From Psychroflexus longus (GTDB lineage Bacteria > Bacteroidota > Bacteroidia > Flavobacteriales > Flavobacteriaceae): 64,000 nucleotides of DNA. Below are positions 11,240 to 19,104 of this stretch, piece after piece (position 1 is the first letter of the stretch; each line of letters starts with the position of its first letter). A program made the position numbers and the translations under genes. Under the pieces are notes generated by a model. The model made no database searches, had not been told where the DNA came from, and saw only the letters and a program-made list of their open reading frames with translations. The stretch is from assembly GCF_020164595.1 (NCBI RefSeq), contig NZ_JAIQZE010000001.1, forward strand, positions 543,893 to 607,892. Reading direction: 5' to 3'.

Positions 11240-12694
11240 TTAGTTACTTTTTATAAGCCTGAAAATCTCTTTCTTTTCAGAGATAAATACACTGAAACAG
11301 AAAATTAAAATAAGTGATACTCCTACAACATAATTTTCTCTGAAATAGTAAAACGAAATTAGAGAAAATAGAACGGATATAGATAAGTAAATTAGCATTT
11401 TACCATATTTATAGGGAATCGCGTAATGCTTTTGTCCAAGAAAAAAGGAGATCAACATCATGCTGCCGTAAGCAACAAGTGTTGCAATGGCCGAACCTAC
11501 ATAACCAATAGTCGGGATGAGCCAAATATTGATCCCTATAGTGAATATAGCTCCCAGTGAGGAAATGTAAGCGCCGTACTGGGTTTTATCAGTGACTTTG
11601 TACCACACGGAGAGATTGTGATAAATCCCTAAAAACAAGTTGGCAAGCAGGATAATCGGCACAATTTTCATCGCCTCCCAGTAGCTTTCATTTTGGATGA
11701 AAAGCACTTTGAAAAGATCTGCAAATACAATCACGACCAATAGAATAACAGTACCGATAATGACAAAGTATTTGGTAATCATGGCATAAGCCGTTTTTGG
11801 ATTTTTACTGGAGGCATGGCTAAAAAAGAACGGCTCAATCCCCAAGCGAAACGCGGTTGCAAATAACGTCATGAACATGCCTAATTTGTAACAGGCTGAG
11901 TAAATTCCAACTTGTTCTTTAGCGATGTTTTCTGGCAGCATACGTTCCAAAAACAAACGGTCGATGACTTCATTAATTGAAAAAGCAACTCCAGCTACCA
12001 AAACCGGCAGCGCGTACTTCATCATGGATTTCCAGAGTTTCCAATCAAATTGAAATTGAATTTTAGAATAAAATGGAATAAGTAACAAAAGCGTAATTGC
12101 ACTGGCTATAATCAAGGAAATGAAGATATAACTGACTTCAAAATTCGGGATGTAAATGGATTTAAAGAAATCACTTGATTCTGCTAGGTCTTTTAGATAT
12201 AACAAGAAAAAAACGTTTAACCCAAGATTGATTGCCACATTCAGAGTTTTTATAATAGCAAATTTTACAGGCTTACTGTTGGCGCGTAGCCATGAAAAAG
12301 GAATAATCGCCAGCGCGTCTAAAGCTAAAATCCAAATGATCAATTTAAGATTTTGTGTGCTTATCCTTGTAAAACTTTGGATTTCAGAAATGGATAAGTA
12401 AGCTAAAATGACAAACACTAAAGTGGTTGTTATAATGGACCAGGTCGATGTATAAACAACCTGAGATTTATCCTTTTCTTTATTATAAAACCTGAAAAAA
12501 GCAGTCTCCATTCCGTAAGCCAGAATGACATTAAAAATCACAAAATAGGAAAAGATAATCGAGTAATCTCCAAAGGAGGTATTCTCCAAAACTCCCGTGT
12601 AAAGCGGCACCAAGATCACTGAAAGCATTCTAGGGATCACCGTAGCCACTCCATAGATGAAGGTGTTCTGAAAAAGCTTTTTGTAGATACTCAC
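11240..12694 (-). CDS. Oligosaccharide flippase / polysaccharide biosynthesis membrane protein
   Basis: 484 residues, almost entirely hydrophobic helices (12-14 predicted), with an N-terminal Y-G-x-A-T-V-I-P-R-M-L signature typical of the Wzx/PST branch of the MOP flippase superfamily. These proteins move lipid-linked sugars across the inner membrane. The start is a GTG at 12694: the residues right after it match the usual N-terminus of the family, and no ATG fits better. It is the first gene of the operon that continues through dut to the EnvC-like gene. A TACATTTG box on the minus strand lies 18 nt before the start. Exact substrate unknown. Confidence 0.85.
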   Translation of the reverse strand: MSIYKKLFQNTFIYGVATVIPRMLSVILVPLYTGVLENTSFGDYSIIFSYFVIFNVILAYGMETAFFRFYNKEKDKSQVVYTSTWSIITTTLVFVILAYLSISEIQSFTRISTQNLKLIIWILALDALAIIPFSWLRANSKPVKFAIIKTLNVAINLGLNVFFLLYLKDLAESSDFFKSIYIPNFEVSYIFISLIIASAITLLLLIPFYSKIQFQFDWKLWKSMMKYALPVLVAGVAFSINEVIDRLFLERMLPENIAKEQVGIYSACYKLGMFMTLFATAFRLGIEPFFFSHASSKNPKTAYAMITKYFVIIGTVILLVVIVFADLFKVLFIQNESYWEAMKIVPIILLANLFLGIYHNLSVWYKVTDKTQYGAYISSLGAIFTIGINIWLIPTIGYVGSAIATLVAYGSMMLISFFLGQKHYAIPYKYGKMLIYLSISVLFSLISFYYFRENYVVGVSLILIFCFSVFISEKKEIFRLIKSN

Positions 12695-12712
12695 TAGTTA
12701 ATTTTGATCTTT

Positions 12713-12720
12713 CAAATGTA
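12713..12720 (-). promoter_or_regulatory. Predicted -7 promoter box of the flippase-dut-EnvC operon
   Basis: Minus-strand TACATTTG matches the Bacteroidota housekeeping -7 consensus TAnnTTTG exactly and sits 18 nt before the GTG start. No TTG appears at the usual -33 distance, so this rests on one element and position. Confidence 0.45.
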
Positions 12721-12780
12721 GTAAAATATGAGGTTAAATAAAGTGACCGCTCGATCGCTTACTTTGAGCTGATATCGAGG

Positions 12781-12803
12781 GGTTTTTATAATTTATAAAA
12801 ACC
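12781..12803. repeat. 23-bp perfect palindrome between divergent genes
   Basis: Two 11-bp arms (12781-12791 and 12793-12803) are exact reverse complements around a single central T. It lies in the 255-nt spacer between the divergent flippase operon and the UvrA-like gene, 146 nt before the latter's ATG. A dyad of this size could be an operator for a dimeric regulator. It lacks the GC content and T-tract of a good terminator. Confidence 0.55.
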
Positions 12804-12949
12804 GACACTTATTCAAATACAGCAGTATTGATGTCTTTTGTTTCCTAAAAAAGTTAAGGTTATTCCAATGCATAGCCGGACTTAGTTAGACGCTTACGAT
12901 CTTTATATCTTTCAGTTTTTAAATTTCAAAACAGAAAGCATCTTACTGA

Positions 12950-15900
12950 ATGAAGATAAAAAACGCCCATCAAAATAACCTCAAGAATATAAATTTAGAG
13001 ATTCCAGAGAATCAACTTATTGTAGTCACTGGCTTGTCTGGATCTGGAAAATCTTCACTGGCGATGAATGTGATTGCCAATGAAGGCTATCGCTATTTCC
13101 TGGAAAGTTTGCCAGCTTATAACCAACAAAACGGGCAAGCGATCCCAACCGCTGAAGTAGATGACATTCAGGATTTGCCGCCGGTCATCAAAGTAGAACA
13201 ATCCAAACGCTTCCAATCCATCAACACTACTTTTGGAACGCTGTCTGAATTGACTTCAGTTTTCAGAATTCTGTTTGCCCGCTATTCTGCTGAAGAAACC
13301 ATGAGTAAGTCGTTCTTTTCCTTCAATCATCCGAAAGGCGCCTGTGAAGTTTGCCGTGGAATCGGAGAAGAAGAATACATCGATCTGGATAAAGTGATCG
13401 GTGACGAGAACAAAACGCTGAGAGAAGGCGCTATCACGACCACCTTACCTAACGGCTACATTGTGTATTCACAAATCACCGTGGAAGAATTGAATAAAGT
13501 TTGCAGAGCTCACGGTTTTCATGTGGATATTCCCTGGAAAGAACTTTCAGAAGAACAACAGGACGTAGTATTGAATGGGAGTGATCGTCTTAAAGTGTTT
13601 TATGGTAAACACGGCTTAGAATCTCGCCTGCGCTGGCAAGGCATCAAAGCCAAGCCTCGGGAAGAAGGCTATTACAAAGGCATGTTGCCGATTATGCAAA
13701 ACATCTTGAGAGTAGACCGAAACCCAAATATTTTGAAATTTGCGAGTTCCAGAGTTTGTCCAAGTTGTAATGGTGGTCGCATTAAAGCGGAGCATTTGAA
13801 GCATAAATGGAAAGGACAAAACTTTCAAGCCTGGCTGGATTTGTCTTTAGATGATTTATACCACCAATTGAATCAGTTGAAACTTTCATCTGGTGAACAA
13901 CAATTGGTAGACAAAATAATTATTCAGTTGTTGGACCTGATCCGATTGGGCATGGGTGACTATCGACTCAGTACGCCGAGCATGGACATTTCCTCTGGGG
14001 ATGGACAACGCATCAAACTTATTAATCAGGTAAATTCGAAGTTACAGGGCATTTTATATATTTTTGACGAACCTTCTATAGGTCTTTCGGCCGATTATCA
14101 GAATTACTTACTGCATATCTTGGATCGGTTGATCCAACGGGGAAACACGGTTATGGTGGTGGAACATGATTTAGATTTTATACAAGCCGCCGACTGGATC
14201 ATTGAATTAGGACCTGAAGCAGGAGTAAATGGTGGTGACGTCATTTTTAATGGTTCCAGAGAGAAATTCTTGAAGACTGAAGATCTAAACAGTCCAACTC
14301 TAGCTGCCCTGCAGTCAAATAAAATTCCAATAGCTGATGCTTCAGAAAAACCATCTAAAAAAGTAACGGCTGATGATTTTCAACCCCAGGCCAATGCGCT
14401 AACGGTCATCAGTCGGAAAACGCCAGAGTTAATTAAACGCATTTCTGATTTTTGCGAACACCAAAATTTCAATCTTCTCACGGTCACTGACCAGCCTATT
14501 GGCAAAACACCACGGAGTAATCCAGCAACTTATACAGGCTTGGCCGATAAAATTCGGGATCTACTGGGTAAAACAACCGAGGCAAAATCTTCAAATCTTA
14601 GCAAGAGTGCCTTTTCATTCAATAATAGAAAAGGGCGTTGCGAGACTTGCGAAGGCGCTGGAGTTATCACCCTTTCCATGAGTGTGATGGGAAACATCAA
14701 TCAGGTTTGTCCAACTTGTAATGGAAAGCGTTTTAAGCCAGAAGTACTAAATGTGAATTGGAATGGAAAGAATATTTCAGAAATCTATAATCTTAGTATT
14801 GAAGAGGCCTTTGACTTCTTTTCTGGTGAAAAAAAAATCACCGACATCCTGTCGTTGATGATTCAGCTGGGTTTAGATTACATCAAATTAGGTCAACCTT
14901 CCAATACATTATCTGGAGGAGAAGCCCAGAGGATTAAGCTCACCAAGCACTTTGCCAAGAGATCCAAACAAACACTTTTGGTCTTGGAAGAGCCCAGCAT
15001 TGGCTTACACCATCAGAATGTGATTCAATTACTTGAAGCACTCAATCAGCTGAAATATCAAACTGCAGGCATTCTTTGTTTTGAAAATCACCAGCTGTTT
15101 CAGAAGAAGTGTGATGTTTGGGTTGACAATGCTTTGAAGGTCAAATTTATTGAATTGAAATCTGAAAAACCTCAGCAGCGGGATTCAATTTCCATACGTG
15201 GAGCTCGAACGCATTCTCTAAAGGATTTAGCCCTGAATTTACCGAAGCATCAGCTTTCTGTGGTGACAGGCATTTCAGGCTCAGGGAAATCTTCATTGGT
15301 TATTGACACTTTACACGGTTTTGGCCTTCAGGAAATGACCAAACAGTTTTCGGCGTATCAGCAATCCAGAGTGGGTGTGAATTTTCAGTTTGACGTGAAT
15401 CATATTGAAGGACTAACTCCCAGCATTTGCATCACAAGAAAGCAAAAAAACTATTCTCAGCGATCGGATATTGCCAAGCAAACGGGAATTGACAAAATCC
15501 TGAGGTTTGCTTTTTCCAGAAAAGCTCAATACGAAGGTGAAGACTTATCGGCTAGTCATTTTTCCAAAAACCACGAATTAGGAAAATGCAGCGTTTGCCA
15601 GGGTATTGGAGAGGAATTGCTTCCAGACCTGAACAAGCTTGTGCTGGATAAAAATAAAAGCATTGTTGGTGGATTATTTGCTCACAATAAAGCCATCGGC
15701 TATTATGGCGATCCTGCCGGGCAACATATGGCGATTTTAAAAAGCGTGGGGAATGCATACGATTTTACACTACAAACCCCTTTTAAGGAGTTAACTGAAA
15801 AACAAAAAGAAGTTTTATTGTACGGAACTGGAGATCAAGTTTGGGAAGCCAACTGGGTTTATCAGACCAAAACACGCGAGGGAACACAAGCTTTGGAAAT

Positions 15901-17452
15901 GACATGGGATGGTCTTTTCAGTTACTTGAAAGAGGAATATTACAAGACTCGCAAAAATAAGAATATAAGTCAGTTGACGGCTTTATTTTCCTACAACCAA
16001 TGCAGCAATTGCGAGGGAAGCGGATTGAAACCTGAGCGTTTGAAATTTAAACTTGCTGGCGAGTCGATTCACGAAATTAAATCGATGAATTTTAAAAGTT
16101 TAGAAAAGTGGCTGTCCAAAAATGCAAAGACCACAAGTATAGATGGAAAACTACTTTCTAAAATTGAAACGTACATCACAAACACCATTACCAGGGCAAA
16201 AGAATTGCACATTGATCACCTGGAACTCAGCCGAAAATCGCCAACACTCTCAGGAGGTGAAAATCAGCGTATCGCTTTGATCAAACAACTGAACAGTCCG
16301 TTGAAAGGCATTACCTATTTGTTGGACGAACCTTCTGCTGGACTGTCGCAGGATAATATCCCCGACCTCATCCAAATTCTGAAAGAACTAATTCAAAAAG
16401 GAAATACGGTGATTGTGATCGAGCACGATAAATCCATCATTCAGGCTGCAGATCATGTTGTTGAGATCGGTCCTAAGGCTGGAAAATTGGGAGGTTATAT
16501 CACTTTTCAGGGCGATGCGAAAGGTTTCTTGGAACAACCGAATTGCCATCCTTTTTTGAATGCTGCGAGCAAAAAAGTGCAATTGAAACCTGGCAAAAGT
16601 CATATAGAGATTCAAAAGCTTGCCAAACATACTTTAGTAAAAGACAAGTTGAAAGTACCTATTGGTGGAATTACAGGTATCACTGGTAAATCTGGTGTGG
16701 GGAAAACCACTTTGGTCAAAGAAATATTGATTCCAAGTATAAAAATGGGTCAGCCAGTGAATTGCTCAAATATCGACTTTCCTGGAACTTATGCAGGAGC
16801 GCATTATTTTGAACCTAAAAAGCTTAGAACCCATGCCAGCACTTTATTGGTGTCTTATCTGGATATTCTGAAAGACATCAGTAAGGTTTTTGCCAGCGAA
16901 ACAAAATTAAATGCAAAAGATTTTTCTTACAAAACGAAAAAGAGCCAATGCCCAAATTGCAAGGGAAAAGGTTTTGTAGAAACCAGTTTGGATCTTACCG
17001 CTAATGCTATTGAAACTTGCGAAGTCTGTGAAGGTAAGCGTTACCGAAAAGAAATTTTAGACTTTAAAGTGAATTCCAAACACATTGCTGATATTCTAAA
17101 AATGACAATTTCAGAACTAAAAAAATGGTTTTCTGATTTTAAAATCTCTAAAAAGACCCTTGATTTCATCGAAAGTCTTGAAGACATTGGCTTGTCACAT
17201 TTAAGTTTAGAACAGACTGTGCAGTCACTTTCATCTGGAGAGAAACAACGCCTGTTACTTTTAAATTGGTTACAAGATGCCCCTAAAAATGAGCTGTTTA
17301 TTTTAGATGAACCTAGCACAGGTCTTCATTACGCAGATATTGATTTGCTCTATACTATTTTAGAAAGACTGAGTTTAGATAATGACATTTTGGTGATAGA
17401 ACACAATCCGTATCTGCTGGAAAAAATAGGTGTTGGTTTAGTTTTGGAGTAA
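12950..17452 (+). CDS. Tandem (double-length) UvrA-like ABC ATPase
   Basis: 1500 residues: two UvrA-type units fused head to tail, against about 940 for one UvrA. Unit 1 (1-735) has Walker A GLSGSGKSS (28-36), CxxC pairs at 132/135 and 270/273, a degenerate signature SSGDGQR (348-354) and Walker B ending DEP (373-375). Its second half keeps a CxxC-19-CxxC zinc module (564-590) and LSGGEAQR (654-661) but has no P-loop near 485. Unit 2 (740-1500) has P-loops at 774-783 and 1246-1255, zinc CxxC pairs at 880/883, 1018/1021, 1334/1337 and 1357/1360, signatures at 1100 and 1427, and Walker B DEP at 1126 and 1453. Both units pass from the first P-loop domain straight to the zinc domain, so the UvrB-binding domain is missing. 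Monocistronic. This resembles class III (drug-resistance type) UvrA more than repair UvrA; function unknown. Confidence 0.9.
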   Translation: MKIKNAHQNNLKNINLEIPENQLIVVTGLSGSGKSSLAMNVIANEGYRYFLESLPAYNQQNGQAIPTAEVDDIQDLPPVIKVEQSKRFQSINTTFGTLSELTSVFRILFARYSAEETMSKSFFSFNHPKGACEVCRGIGEEEYIDLDKVIGDENKTLREGAITTTLPNGYIVYSQITVEELNKVCRAHGFHVDIPWKELSEEQQDVVLNGSDRLKVFYGKHGLESRLRWQGIKAKPREEGYYKGMLPIMQNILRVDRNPNILKFASSRVCPSCNGGRIKAEHLKHKWKGQNFQAWLDLSLDDLYHQLNQLKLSSGEQQLVDKIIIQLLDLIRLGMGDYRLSTPSMDISSGDGQRIKLINQVNSKLQGILYIFDEPSIGLSADYQNYLLHILDRLIQRGNTVMVVEHDLDFIQAADWIIELGPEAGVNGGDVIFNGSREKFLKTEDLNSPTLAALQSNKIPIADASEKPSKKVTADDFQPQANALTVISRKTPELIKRISDFCEHQNFNLLTVTDQPIGKTPRSNPATYTGLADKIRDLLGKTTEAKSSNLSKSAFSFNNRKGRCETCEGAGVITLSMSVMGNINQVCPTCNGKRFKPEVLNVNWNGKNISEIYNLSIEEAFDFFSGEKKITDILSLMIQLGLDYIKLGQPSNTLSGGEAQRIKLTKHFAKRSKQTLLVLEEPSIGLHHQNVIQLLEALNQLKYQTAGILCFENHQLFQKKCDVWVDNALKVKFIELKSEKPQQRDSISIRGARTHSLKDLALNLPKHQLSVVTGISGSGKSSLVIDTLHGFGLQEMTKQFSAYQQSRVGVNFQFDVNHIEGLTPSICITRKQKNYSQRSDIAKQTGIDKILRFAFSRKAQYEGEDLSASHFSKNHELGKCSVCQGIGEELLPDLNKLVLDKNKSIVGGLFAHNKAIGYYGDPAGQHMAILKSVGNAYDFTLQTPFKELTEKQKEVLLYGTGDQVWEANWVYQTKTREGTQALEMTWDGLFSYLKEEYYKTRKNKNISQLTALFSYNQCSNCEGSGLKPERLKFKLAGESIHEIKSMNFKSLEKWLSKNAKTTSIDGKLLSKIETYITNTITRAKELHIDHLELSRKSPTLSGGENQRIALIKQLNSPLKGITYLLDEPSAGLSQDNIPDLIQILKELIQKGNTVIVIEHDKSIIQAADHVVEIGPKAGKLGGYITFQGDAKGFLEQPNCHPFLNAASKKVQLKPGKSHIEIQKLAKHTLVKDKLKVPIGGITGITGKSGVGKTTLVKEILIPSIKMGQPVNCSNIDFPGTYAGAHYFEPKKLRTHASTLLVSYLDILKDISKVFASETKLNAKDFSYKTKKSQCPNCKGKGFVETSLDLTANAIETCEVCEGKRYRKEILDFKVNSKHIADILKMTISELKKWFSDFKISKKTLDFIESLEDIGLSHLSLEQTVQSLSSGEKQRLLLLNWLQDAPKNELFILDEPSTGLHYADIDLLYTILERLSLDNDILVIEHNPYLLEKIGVGLVLE

Positions 17453-17495
17453 ACTTCGGATTTCTTATAAAAGTAAGTTTAGGGTGAACGGTATT

Positions 17496-17538
17496 AAAAA
17501 ACAGACCTTAAGATTCTTTCTCTTAAGGTCTGTTTTTT
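17496..17538. terminator. Bidirectional intrinsic terminator
   Basis: Perfect 18-bp inverted repeat (17496-17513 with 17521-17538) around a 7-nt loop, with A-run and T-run at its flanks so it works on both strands. It lies between the converging UvrA-like gene (plus) and DUF5689 gene (minus). Confidence 0.9.
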
Positions 17539-17679
17539 ATAATTGTTACAATTTTTTAGATGTACTAGATACCCAGATGTCACGCCAATTATATCTATTA
17601 GCGCTAAGCAATGTATTGTTGAGCTTTTAAGTTAACGGTAACTAATTCAGAATAAAACCTTTATAAAAAATCATACTGA

Positions 17680-19104
17680 TTATTCAACGTTAATAAAAAT
17701 ATCATCCAGCTCGTAGGTGCCGTCTTGACTTTGCTGTCCACTACCAATGTATTTGAAAGCGATGTGTCCATTGCCTTCAAAACAAGACATATCTACGAGC
17801 TTTGAACTTACCCAATCTCCAAAGAACTGACTGTTTGAAACAATTACAGCGTCTTCTATTACACCCCAGTCTGCCGTCGTAATTCCTTCTTCAGTTCCGT
17901 TCCAATTTGTGGAATACAGCACTTGCATCACGCTATCGTCTGAAAAACTGTTTGAAGTTTTGAACTCTAAAGTCACTTTAGAACTGTCAACTACTGGTAT
18001 TTCCGGAGAAATTAACCAAGAAATTGTACTTGCATCACCAGAGTTGAAAGAGCCAACTCTAACTGAAATTCCTAAAGATTGGTTTGTCCCATTATCTACA
18101 AATGCTTCCCAAGCTTCGGAACCAGCTTCAATATAATTGGTCCAACCAGGAATATTTACAGGAGAATTGATATTTTGATCTTCAAAATTGACGTTAATAA
18201 ATTCACTGTTGGCTGGCGTAGAGGCTAACCCACAAGAAAACACAATCGGATCGCAACGTTCGCCCGTCATATCAACATCTTCAGGTGAATTGATGTAAAA
18301 TGTAAAGAACTCACCGAAGAAATCTCTTGTCACAACCCCTTTGAGAGATCCAGATCCTGGAGGTAAGCTTAGGGTTTTAAAATCTGCAAAGGTGCTTGTA
18401 CTAAAAATAAGTTCATTGGAACTTGCGCAACTTTCCAAAATTCGTTCTCCGTCAAAACTATCACCGGTCTCTGATGCATAACTTGCTGAGCCGTTTTCTG
18501 AAAAGTAAATTTTTGAAAATTGAACGTCTGTAAGTTCCACATAGGTATTCACATCTGAAAATTCCAATTCCGAAAGTTGCCTTTGAACAGGAACAATATC
18601 AGCAACAAGGGTGTCTCTAATAATTGATTCGTCAACAAAAGCTTCTGGAATTCTTGCAATATCGGTACCATCTGCAATACCTAATCTTGGCTCATTGCCT
18701 TCTCTTTGTCCTACCGATAGGCCGTCTAGTTTTATATAAACTTTTCTTCCAAAATCAAATTTTGTGAATAGTGGATTGACATCTACTTGTATCGCCACGC
18801 CATAAGTTGGATTTTCTGGTTTATCCTGGACTATTAATTCTCTGAAGAAGTTCCCAGACTCATCATTGGAAATAACGTAAGCTTCTACTACATTATCTGT
18901 ATCATTAAATGTAAACGGACCGTTATCATTCTGCTCCAAAATACCTTCTAATACAGAAAGACTCACGATATTCCCTTCAATATCAGGAGGAGTCTGTTCA
19001 AATTGTGGCGCGTTAAAATCATCATCTTCAACACAGGAAGATGTTGATAATATCATTCCTAAACCAAGGAATAGAAAAAGTAAATTGTGATTAAAAATTT
19101 TCAT
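17680..19104 (-). CDS. DUF5689 lipoprotein with C-terminal jelly-roll (choice-of-anchor J type)
   Basis: 474 residues. A lipoprotein signal has Cys at about residue 24 (STSSC), followed by an acidic D-D-D stretch typical of surface-exposed Bacteroidota lipoproteins. Residues about 40-285 match the DUF5689 type, which I regard as OB-fold-like. Residues 295-474 look like the carbohydrate-binding-like jelly roll often called choice-of-anchor J. The gene follows the TonB receptor by 18 nt, and a secreted endonuclease-type lipoprotein is encoded divergently. It is probably the surface lipoprotein partner of the receptor. A nucleic-acid-related substrate is inferred from the neighbours. Confidence 0.78.
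   Translation of the reverse strand: MKIFNHNLLFLFLGLGMILSTSSCVEDDDFNAPQFEQTPPDIEGNIVSLSVLEGILEQNDNGPFTFNDTDNVVEAYVISNDESGNFFRELIVQDKPENPTYGVAIQVDVNPLFTKFDFGRKVYIKLDGLSVGQREGNEPRLGIADGTDIARIPEAFVDESIIRDTLVADIVPVQRQLSELEFSDVNTYVELTDVQFSKIYFSENGSASYASETGDSFDGERILESCASSNELIFSTSTFADFKTLSLPPGSGSLKGVVTRDFFGEFFTFYINSPEDVDMTGERCDPIVFSCGLASTPANSEFINVNFEDQNINSPVNIPGWTNYIEAGSEAWEAFVDNGTNQSLGISVRVGSFNSGDASTISWLISPEIPVVDSSKVTLEFKTSNSFSDDSVMQVLYSTNWNGTEEGITTADWGVIEDAVIVSNSQFFGDWVSSKLVDMSCFEGNGHIAFKYIGSGQQSQDGTYELDDIFINVE

Follow-up and report, generated by a model that had tools for sequence, protein, structure and literature searches.

The ATP sites of UvrA are composite: ATP-binding I and signature II form the proximal site, and ATP-binding II and signature I form the distal site (PMC10192343; PMC6486640). 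The division of labour between the two sites was studied through point mutants of the symmetric dimer, in which proximal-site ATP binding was required for distal hydrolysis and turnover; a distal Walker A mutant kept its proximal ATPase, which native DNA stimulated more than tenfold and lesion DNA left low (PMC6486640). Ecm16, a protein without the UvrB-binding domain, gives drug resistance; its insertion domain is needed for the recognition of drug-bound DNA, this recognition is coupled to ATP hydrolysis, and cells are protected without UvrB (PMC10192343). Class IIa proteins were proposed to strip non-covalent DNA binders (PMC9241694), and second or class II UvrAs are treated in PMC518961, PMC10413001 and PMC3025350. 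Here we describe a gene for a tandem class II-type UvrA of 1500 residues, located at 12950..17452 (+) in a 64,000-nucleotide stretch of the Psychroflexus longus genome (contig NZ_JAIQZE010000001.1, positions 543,893 to 607,892), which as a whole is called the window. Judged by its motifs, the distal ATP site of the first of the two units is degenerate and the other three sites of the tandem are intact.

The open reading frame (ORF) runs from ATG to stop with zero internal stops. A sequence-only reading of this DNA had proposed that it encodes two complete UvrA-type units, each with two zinc modules and two ABC signatures, as a pre-fused and asymmetric dimer. The window protein was compared with 120 listed of 7820 matches, all full-length and 70-90% identical, and counts out of 121 below refer to this set. 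The two units in one intact frame were borne out, since hidden Markov models made from each half detected the same four-module order of nucleotide-binding domains (NBD-I, NBD-II, NBD-I, NBD-II) in 121/121. The four zinc modules, two per unit as predicted, were present with 16/16 cysteines conserved in 121/121. The search against UvrA families that had been advised gave a score of 1080.7 bits with NCBIfam TIGR00630 (uvra; cut-off 729.8), and a Pfam scan of the tandem protein displayed two UvrA DNA-binding (insertion) domains (PF17755 in two stretches) together with ABC modules. Unit 1 covers residues 1-740 (12950..15169; all coordinates within the gene are on the + strand) and unit 2 residues 745-1500 (15182..17449), the latter with both ATP sites intact in the sequence alignment. 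The inter-unit linker, residues 723-744 (15116..15181), is weakly conserved (0.57). An assembly error, which the sequence-only reading had also dismissed, or a chance fusion was rejected because each of the 120 listed homologues is a tandem of full length; the tandem frame is likewise open in 20 separately assembled genome loci, picked for holding the tandem. The architecture is less unfamiliar than had been stated. A curated UvrA model of 1809 positions, NCBIfam NF001885, which we take to be the chlamydial tandem UvrA, exists, and so do double UvrAs that keep PF17760, presumably the UvrB-binding domain (called UvrB-competent tandems below). The window protein scored 707.7 bits with NF001885, below its cut-off of 3054.

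Because the proximal and distal sites are paired as defined above, all of the elements lost in unit 1 fall in one composite site. Signature I of unit 1 reads ISSGDGQ (residue 347; 13988..14008) and is degenerate in 121/121. The former Walker A II (residues 484-497; 14399..14440) reads VISRKTP; the P-loop is absent in 121/121, the glycine-rich segment being shortened by a five-column gap compared with relatives. In Walker B II (14975..14995) the magnesium Asp is replaced by Glu (EEP; not DEP in 118/121), and in H-loop II, FENH (15077..15097), Asn occupies the expected His position, where His is absent in 120/121, with a His one position downstream. The distal site of unit 1 therefore keeps 0/4 elements in 117/121 sequences and 1/4 in 4/121. 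Its proximal site, which includes Walker A I GLSGSGKSS (13031..13057) and signature II LSGGEAQ (14909..14929), each intact in 121/121, keeps 4/4 elements in 121/121. The same state (distal 0/4, proximal 4/4) was found in 18/18 subfamily genome loci, which were chosen for holding the tandem.

In unit 2, Walker A, Walker B and H-loop are present at both sites in 121/121, with one signature I change among the 121. The proximal site contains Walker A I GISGSGKSS (15269..15295; by motif alignment) and signature II LSSGEKQ (17228..17248; LSSGE in 121/121), and the distal site contains signature I LSGGENQ (16247..16267; 120/121) and Walker A II GKSGVGKTT (16685..16711; P-loop in 121/121). The predicted asymmetry of the chain is thus recovered as a dead distal site in unit 1 beside intact sites in unit 2. 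All four predicted signature places were found, with the reservation that signature I of unit 1 is degenerate. The units cannot be called complete UvrAs, since both are without the UvrB-binding domain and one signature and its partner P-loop are degenerate; the sequence-only reading had noticed neither that this domain is absent from each unit nor that one composite ATP site, and no other, is consistently dead.

The tandem gene is under purifying selection as judged from the ratio of nonsynonymous to synonymous substitution rates (dN/dS). Comparison of the window gene with its nearest relative gave a dN/dS of 0.064 for the whole gene, 0.013 for the unit 1 insertion domain and 0.114 for the former P-loop segment. 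The linker (segment 723-748) gave 0.54, 0.05 and 0.35 in three pairs, of which 0.54 is the window against its nearest relative and 0.05 a saturated pair; the values of short segments are noisy, and dS was saturated in other pairs. Invariant columns among the 121 sequences made up 44% of insertion domain 1 and 19% of insertion domain 2. The former P-loop segment had zero invariant columns and a conservation of 0.60, which makes it the least conserved part except the linker. This poor conservation would be in accordance with a decaying duplicate, in which the dead distal site reflects loss of function and not mechanism. A duplicate of this kind would hardly have kept the unit 1 proximal site, the 16 cysteines and the reading frame in 121/121, nor would it show such strong purifying selection over the whole gene, and we consider this explanation very improbable.

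By spacing, neither tandem unit has a UvrB-binding domain or a zinc module 1. Walker A and the first zinc pair are separated by 96 and 98 residues in units 1 and 2, and by 238 and 236 residues in the two other full-length UvrAs of the genome; the alignment of the tandem protein with 2r6f skips the stretch of the UvrB-binding domain. The two cysteine pairs of zinc module 2 are 138 residues apart in each unit, with the insertion domain between them. In unit 1, zinc module 2 (C132, C135, C270, C273; 13343..13768; 4/4 cysteines in 121/121) surrounds the insertion (DNA-reading) domain, residues 140-268 (13367..13753), and zinc module 3 (C564, C567, C587, C590; 14639..14719) is conserved in 121/121. 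The insertion domain of unit 2, residues 888-1016 (15611..15997), varies more than its unit 1 counterpart, and zinc module 3 of unit 2 (C1334, C1337, C1357, C1360; 16949..17029) is again conserved in 121/121. A GKHxLES motif, counted in a loosened form, was found in 116/121 insertion domains of unit 1 and in 0/121 of unit 2 (a stricter version matched 48/121), and in 0/26 of those rows of the 67-unit set used for the tree below that represent canonical UvrAs, UvrB-competent tandems or single-unit UvrAs. A model of unit 1 has the UvrA fold and matched the Ecm16/UvrA2 fold in a fold comparison, and unit 2 aligned with D. radiodurans UvrA2 (2vf7; best stretch 3-726) by sequence only; the fold expected for both units was thus recovered for unit 1.

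The same genome encodes two other full-length UvrAs and UvrB, so ordinary repair is covered elsewhere. The tandem might nevertheless be an auxiliary repair UvrA that passes lesions to UvrB/UvrC via the canonical UvrA of the genome or through another contact. The score above the UvrA equivalog cut-off and the presence of UvrB would be consistent with this, as would the finding that Porphyromonas gingivalis, with one of its two UvrA paralogues mutated, is sensitive to UV and peroxide (PMC3747172). It is made improbable by the absence from both units of zinc module 1 and of the domain that binds UvrB, by the two full-length UvrAs already present, and by a patchy occurrence (12/397 family genomes) that is unlike that of a repair core gene.

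The ATP sites of relatives were surveyed in 110 units from five hand-chosen groups. Distal sites were intact in 12/12 canonical UvrAs and in 11/11 single-unit UvrAs without the UvrB-binding domain. Among 30 distant relatives, many of them fragments, 12 had an intact distal site in unit 1, 16 a degenerate one and 2 an incomplete one, and for the proximal site of unit 1 the count was 23 intact and 7 incomplete; in the unit 2s of distant relatives both ATP sites were intact in four and incomplete in seven. The sister group of the tandem subfamily, which holds the complete proteins L100 and L101 (1594 and 1606 residues), has lost the distal signature, Walker B and H-loop and retains the glycine-rich P-loop, with Ala after the P-loop lysine in two members. 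The subfamily of the window has additionally lost this P-loop. The degenerate distal state required at least four changes on the tree, some of them in a single element (P0149, P0164). As reconstructed from these sequences, the decay of the unit 1 distal site is both stepwise and repeated.

A separate observation concerns the UvrB-competent tandems, in which Asp was replaced by Glu at the distal Walker B of unit 2 in 4 of 10 complete unit 2s (P0174, P0181, P0182, P0188). The distal site of the UvrB-competent double UvrA may, by this motif, be drifting.

The origin of the two units was analyzed with a tree of 67 units (IQ-TREE in quick mode, SH-aLRT supports). Seven of the 67 rows began a second unit and were trimmed before a rerun; the trimmed and untrimmed trees gave identical groups, main-split supports (100, 100) and four changes. 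The approximately unbiased (AU) tests were run on the untrimmed set. All unit 1s of the wider family fall on the same side of one branch (100), and all unit 2s on the same side of a second (100); the fusion therefore predates the spread of the wider family. A recent duplication was rejected, as the sequence-only reading had concluded from the strong divergence of the units: forcing the subfamily unit 1s and unit 2s into one clade gave AU p 2.7e-7, and unit 1 and unit 2 share 34% identity over 700 aligned residues. Constraining every unit 1 and unit 2 to a single group was not rejected (AU p 0.326), and in the free tree unit 1 is closer than unit 2 to canonical UvrA. The two units may thus be copies of a single UvrA or may descend from two different ones. 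The placement is weakened by the long branches leading to the subfamily (1.2 and 2.0 changes per site).

Alternatively, the tandem and the UvrB-competent tandems (NF001885 type) could share one ancient double-UvrA origin, the tandem of the window having lost the UvrB-binding domain in both units. Joining the unit 2s of both types was not rejected (AU p 0.307), which would agree with such a descent. Joining the unit 1s was mildly rejected (AU p 0.028), and in the free tree the UvrB-competent and UvrB-free tandems do not join, unit by unit; in the AU tests, fragments of UvrB-competent tandems stood in for NF001885 members. On these data a fusion separate from that of the UvrB-competent tandems is favoured, not proven, and a shared lineage appears unlikely.

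The second full-length UvrA of the same genome (L002; G000:C43:76111-78810) grouped with the unit 1s of UvrB-competent tandems (100) and not with other canonical UvrAs. UvrA-like open frames of about 750-890 residues were also observed in other Bacteroidota (L013, L025-L033, L082-L087); those tested (L013, L025, L028) are without the UvrB-binding domain, and the single-unit rows formed two separate clades.

The tandem was detected in 5/27 genomes of the genus, in 2/60 of one family sample and in 12/397 family genomes, the own genome being included in each count; two more of the family genomes carry long relatives. In the phylum sample it was detected in 1/395, which is the own genome. In the 397- and 395-genome scans two first-look candidates were scored per genome, and some tandems were possibly missed. 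A Marivirga protein (order Cytophagales) adjoined the window protein among those of Flavobacteriales (six-protein sample, SH-aLRT 91 and 94), and this branching suggests transfer of the tandem between orders.

In the window, the tandem gene is located between a polysaccharide flippase-like gene (11240..12694, -; PF01943) and a DUF5689 gene (17680..19104, -; PF18942), which form the left and right borders of a slot with variable cargo. This arrangement was found in 4/5 tandem-bearing genomes of the genus. Of the flippase regions of eight siblings, four had no ORF of at least 70 residues in the slot, three had other genes and one (G065) had different flanks; in one of the three with other cargo (G063) the right border was missing as well. 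No tandem remnant was found in the seven sibling slots searched (best E 3.7). Across the genus (window 11240-19104; L062-L067, L069) the slot held the tandem UvrA, nothing, or a lone 399-aa ORF; the other cargo consisted of genes for a Schlafen-type helicase, a MazG-like protein and a TPR protein in G063, and of an HTH/PD-Lambda-2_B-like gene with a 173-aa ORF in G084. The window as a whole has a GC content of 36.9%; the 40.0% of the tandem gene lies at the upper end of the range of the window's 4.5-kb segments. Carriage by plasmids or phages was rejected, the 937 plasmid and 55 phage records that matched all being below 60% identity. Among 20 tandem loci, representing up to 17 contexts, no neighbour family occurred in more than two contexts, and no operon partner of the tandem gene was found in the loci compared.

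Near the tandem gene of Salinimicrobium, an outer-membrane efflux gene and one for a TetR regulator were found (L018:956-6538, -), beside genes that by eye resemble a periplasmic adaptor and parts of an ABC transporter. In G654, whose tandem is a distant one, the next gene downstream, 371 bases away and on the same strand, is the PADLOC candidate PDC-S41 (L099:12257-14221, +; E 8.8e-290).

The tandem may act as a single-gene DNA-surveillance element against phage or mobile DNA, located in a defence slot. The Schlafen-type helicase set of G063 and the PD-Lambda-2_B-like gene of G084 in the sibling slots, the position of PDC-S41 in G654, and the patchy presence with a transfer-like tree would agree with this role. 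Defence matches were, however, no commoner near the tandem than about 20 to 45 kb off in the same genomes: we counted 3 among 108 neighbours (12 tandem loci, of up to 17 contexts) versus 10 among 107 control genes, as family-member matches at E 1e-25, a threshold chosen after the PDC-S41 neighbour was known, and with overlapping models counted apart. The match of the tandem with the MADS defence protein mad3 (PADLOC; 269 bits) was rejected as non-specific, because it is exceeded by both of the genome's other UvrAs, with 316.2 and 284 bits. A defence role is therefore improbable, about as much so as the auxiliary repair role considered above.

By analogy with the described class II proteins, we propose with a probability of roughly 0.55 that the 1500-residue chain works alone as a lopsided UvrA dimer, which would close on DNA as a clamp and, using ATP, locate and clear DNA-bound drugs or similar distortions. 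Units 1 and 2 would pair like UvrA protomers, an intramolecular pairing that is assumed here, and would form one molecule with three working ATP sites instead of four; folding of the chain back on itself into a dimer is plausible. Unit 1, whose insertion domain is strongly conserved and whose distal site would not cycle ATP, would be the fixed reader or clamp, and unit 2, with both sites live, would drive the cycle of opening and closing. As for Ecm16 and DrrC, sensing of an intercalator or other helix distortion would trigger ATP hydrolysis and clear the ligand, with neither UvrB nor excision taking part. Excision is unlikely because the UvrB docking part is absent, and the behaviour of Ecm16 and of class IIa proteins favours the clearing of ligands or distortions by the tandem. 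A fuller account can be offered more tentatively, at somewhat short of even odds: a natural three-site UvrA, in which UvrB-free units were fused and one and the same ATP site was switched off stepwise and repeatedly, so that a fixed reader and a cycling motor strip DNA ligands without excision.

Several points weigh against the proposal of a lopsided drug-clearing dimer. The fold of unit 1 does not single out class II in the model comparison: canonical UvrAs tie with Ecm16 by Z against the unit 1 model, and the Foldseek E-value places canonical UvrAs above Ecm16, which ranked 31st. Neither unit groups with the seven single-unit UvrAs without the UvrB-binding domain, in a tree that did not contain Ecm16 and DrrC; since the units lie outside the single-unit clades, their kinship with class II is one of features and not of clade. 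Signature II of unit 2, LSSGE, is slightly off the consensus. Drug-biosynthesis genes were not recognised among the Pfam-named neighbours. The tandem chain could dimerise further, and functional data on any member of the tandem subfamily were not found in the open-licence literature. In addition, eight unit-1-type proteins (P0155, P0161, P0164-P0167, P0169, P0180) have the length of a single unit, carry a complete NBD-II and lack a second P-loop. Single-unit homologues would have spoken against the tandem described by the sequence-only reading; the close listed homologues are all tandem and these eight more distant proteins are of single-unit length, so that the outcome is mixed. Some of them are named partial and none belongs to the window tandem subfamily; P0166 (806 aa, on a 4.3-Mb contig) ends in an apparently broken frame; the name of P0164 (825 aa) does not mark it as partial. 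They may be true single units, split or cut tandems, or fragments.

A double-length UvrA is already known as the curated model NF001885. A tandem that is UvrB-free and has a single, conserved dead site was not recognised in the open-licence literature, most subscription journals being outside the search. The tandem family represents a natural experiment, because the loss of the unit 1 distal site is kept in 121/121 and the relatives show the order of loss. A single chain allows the four ATP sites and the two insertion domains to be altered singly, which a homodimer does not. The tandem may also point to an unrecognised UvrB-independent tolerance of DNA-binding compounds in Bacteroidota.

Compared with canonical class I UvrA (2r6f, 3pih, 9gxk), the tandem is without the UvrB docking part and has three intact ATP sites in one chain, whereas a pair of canonical units has four. 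The class II UvrAs, Ecm16 (PDB 7sh1), DrrC and D. radiodurans UvrA2 (2vf7/2vf8), share with it the absence of the UvrB-binding domain. However, they have one unit per chain with two intact ATP sites, while the tandem has two units per chain and a dead distal site in unit 1; Ecm16 and DrrC are moreover located in drug-biosynthesis clusters, and no such genes were recognised near the tandem. The UvrB-competent tandems (P0160, P0170 and others) resemble it in arrangement, with two UvrA units head to tail in P0160, but keep PF17760, with a spacing of 236 residues in unit 2 of P0160, where the window tandem has no UvrB-binding domain. In asymmetric ABC transporters such as CFTR and TAP, one composite ATP site is dead and the other is kept, in one polypeptide. 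These ABC proteins have a membrane domain, whereas the tandem belongs to a DNA-binding family, is without a membrane domain and keeps 3/4 sites intact.

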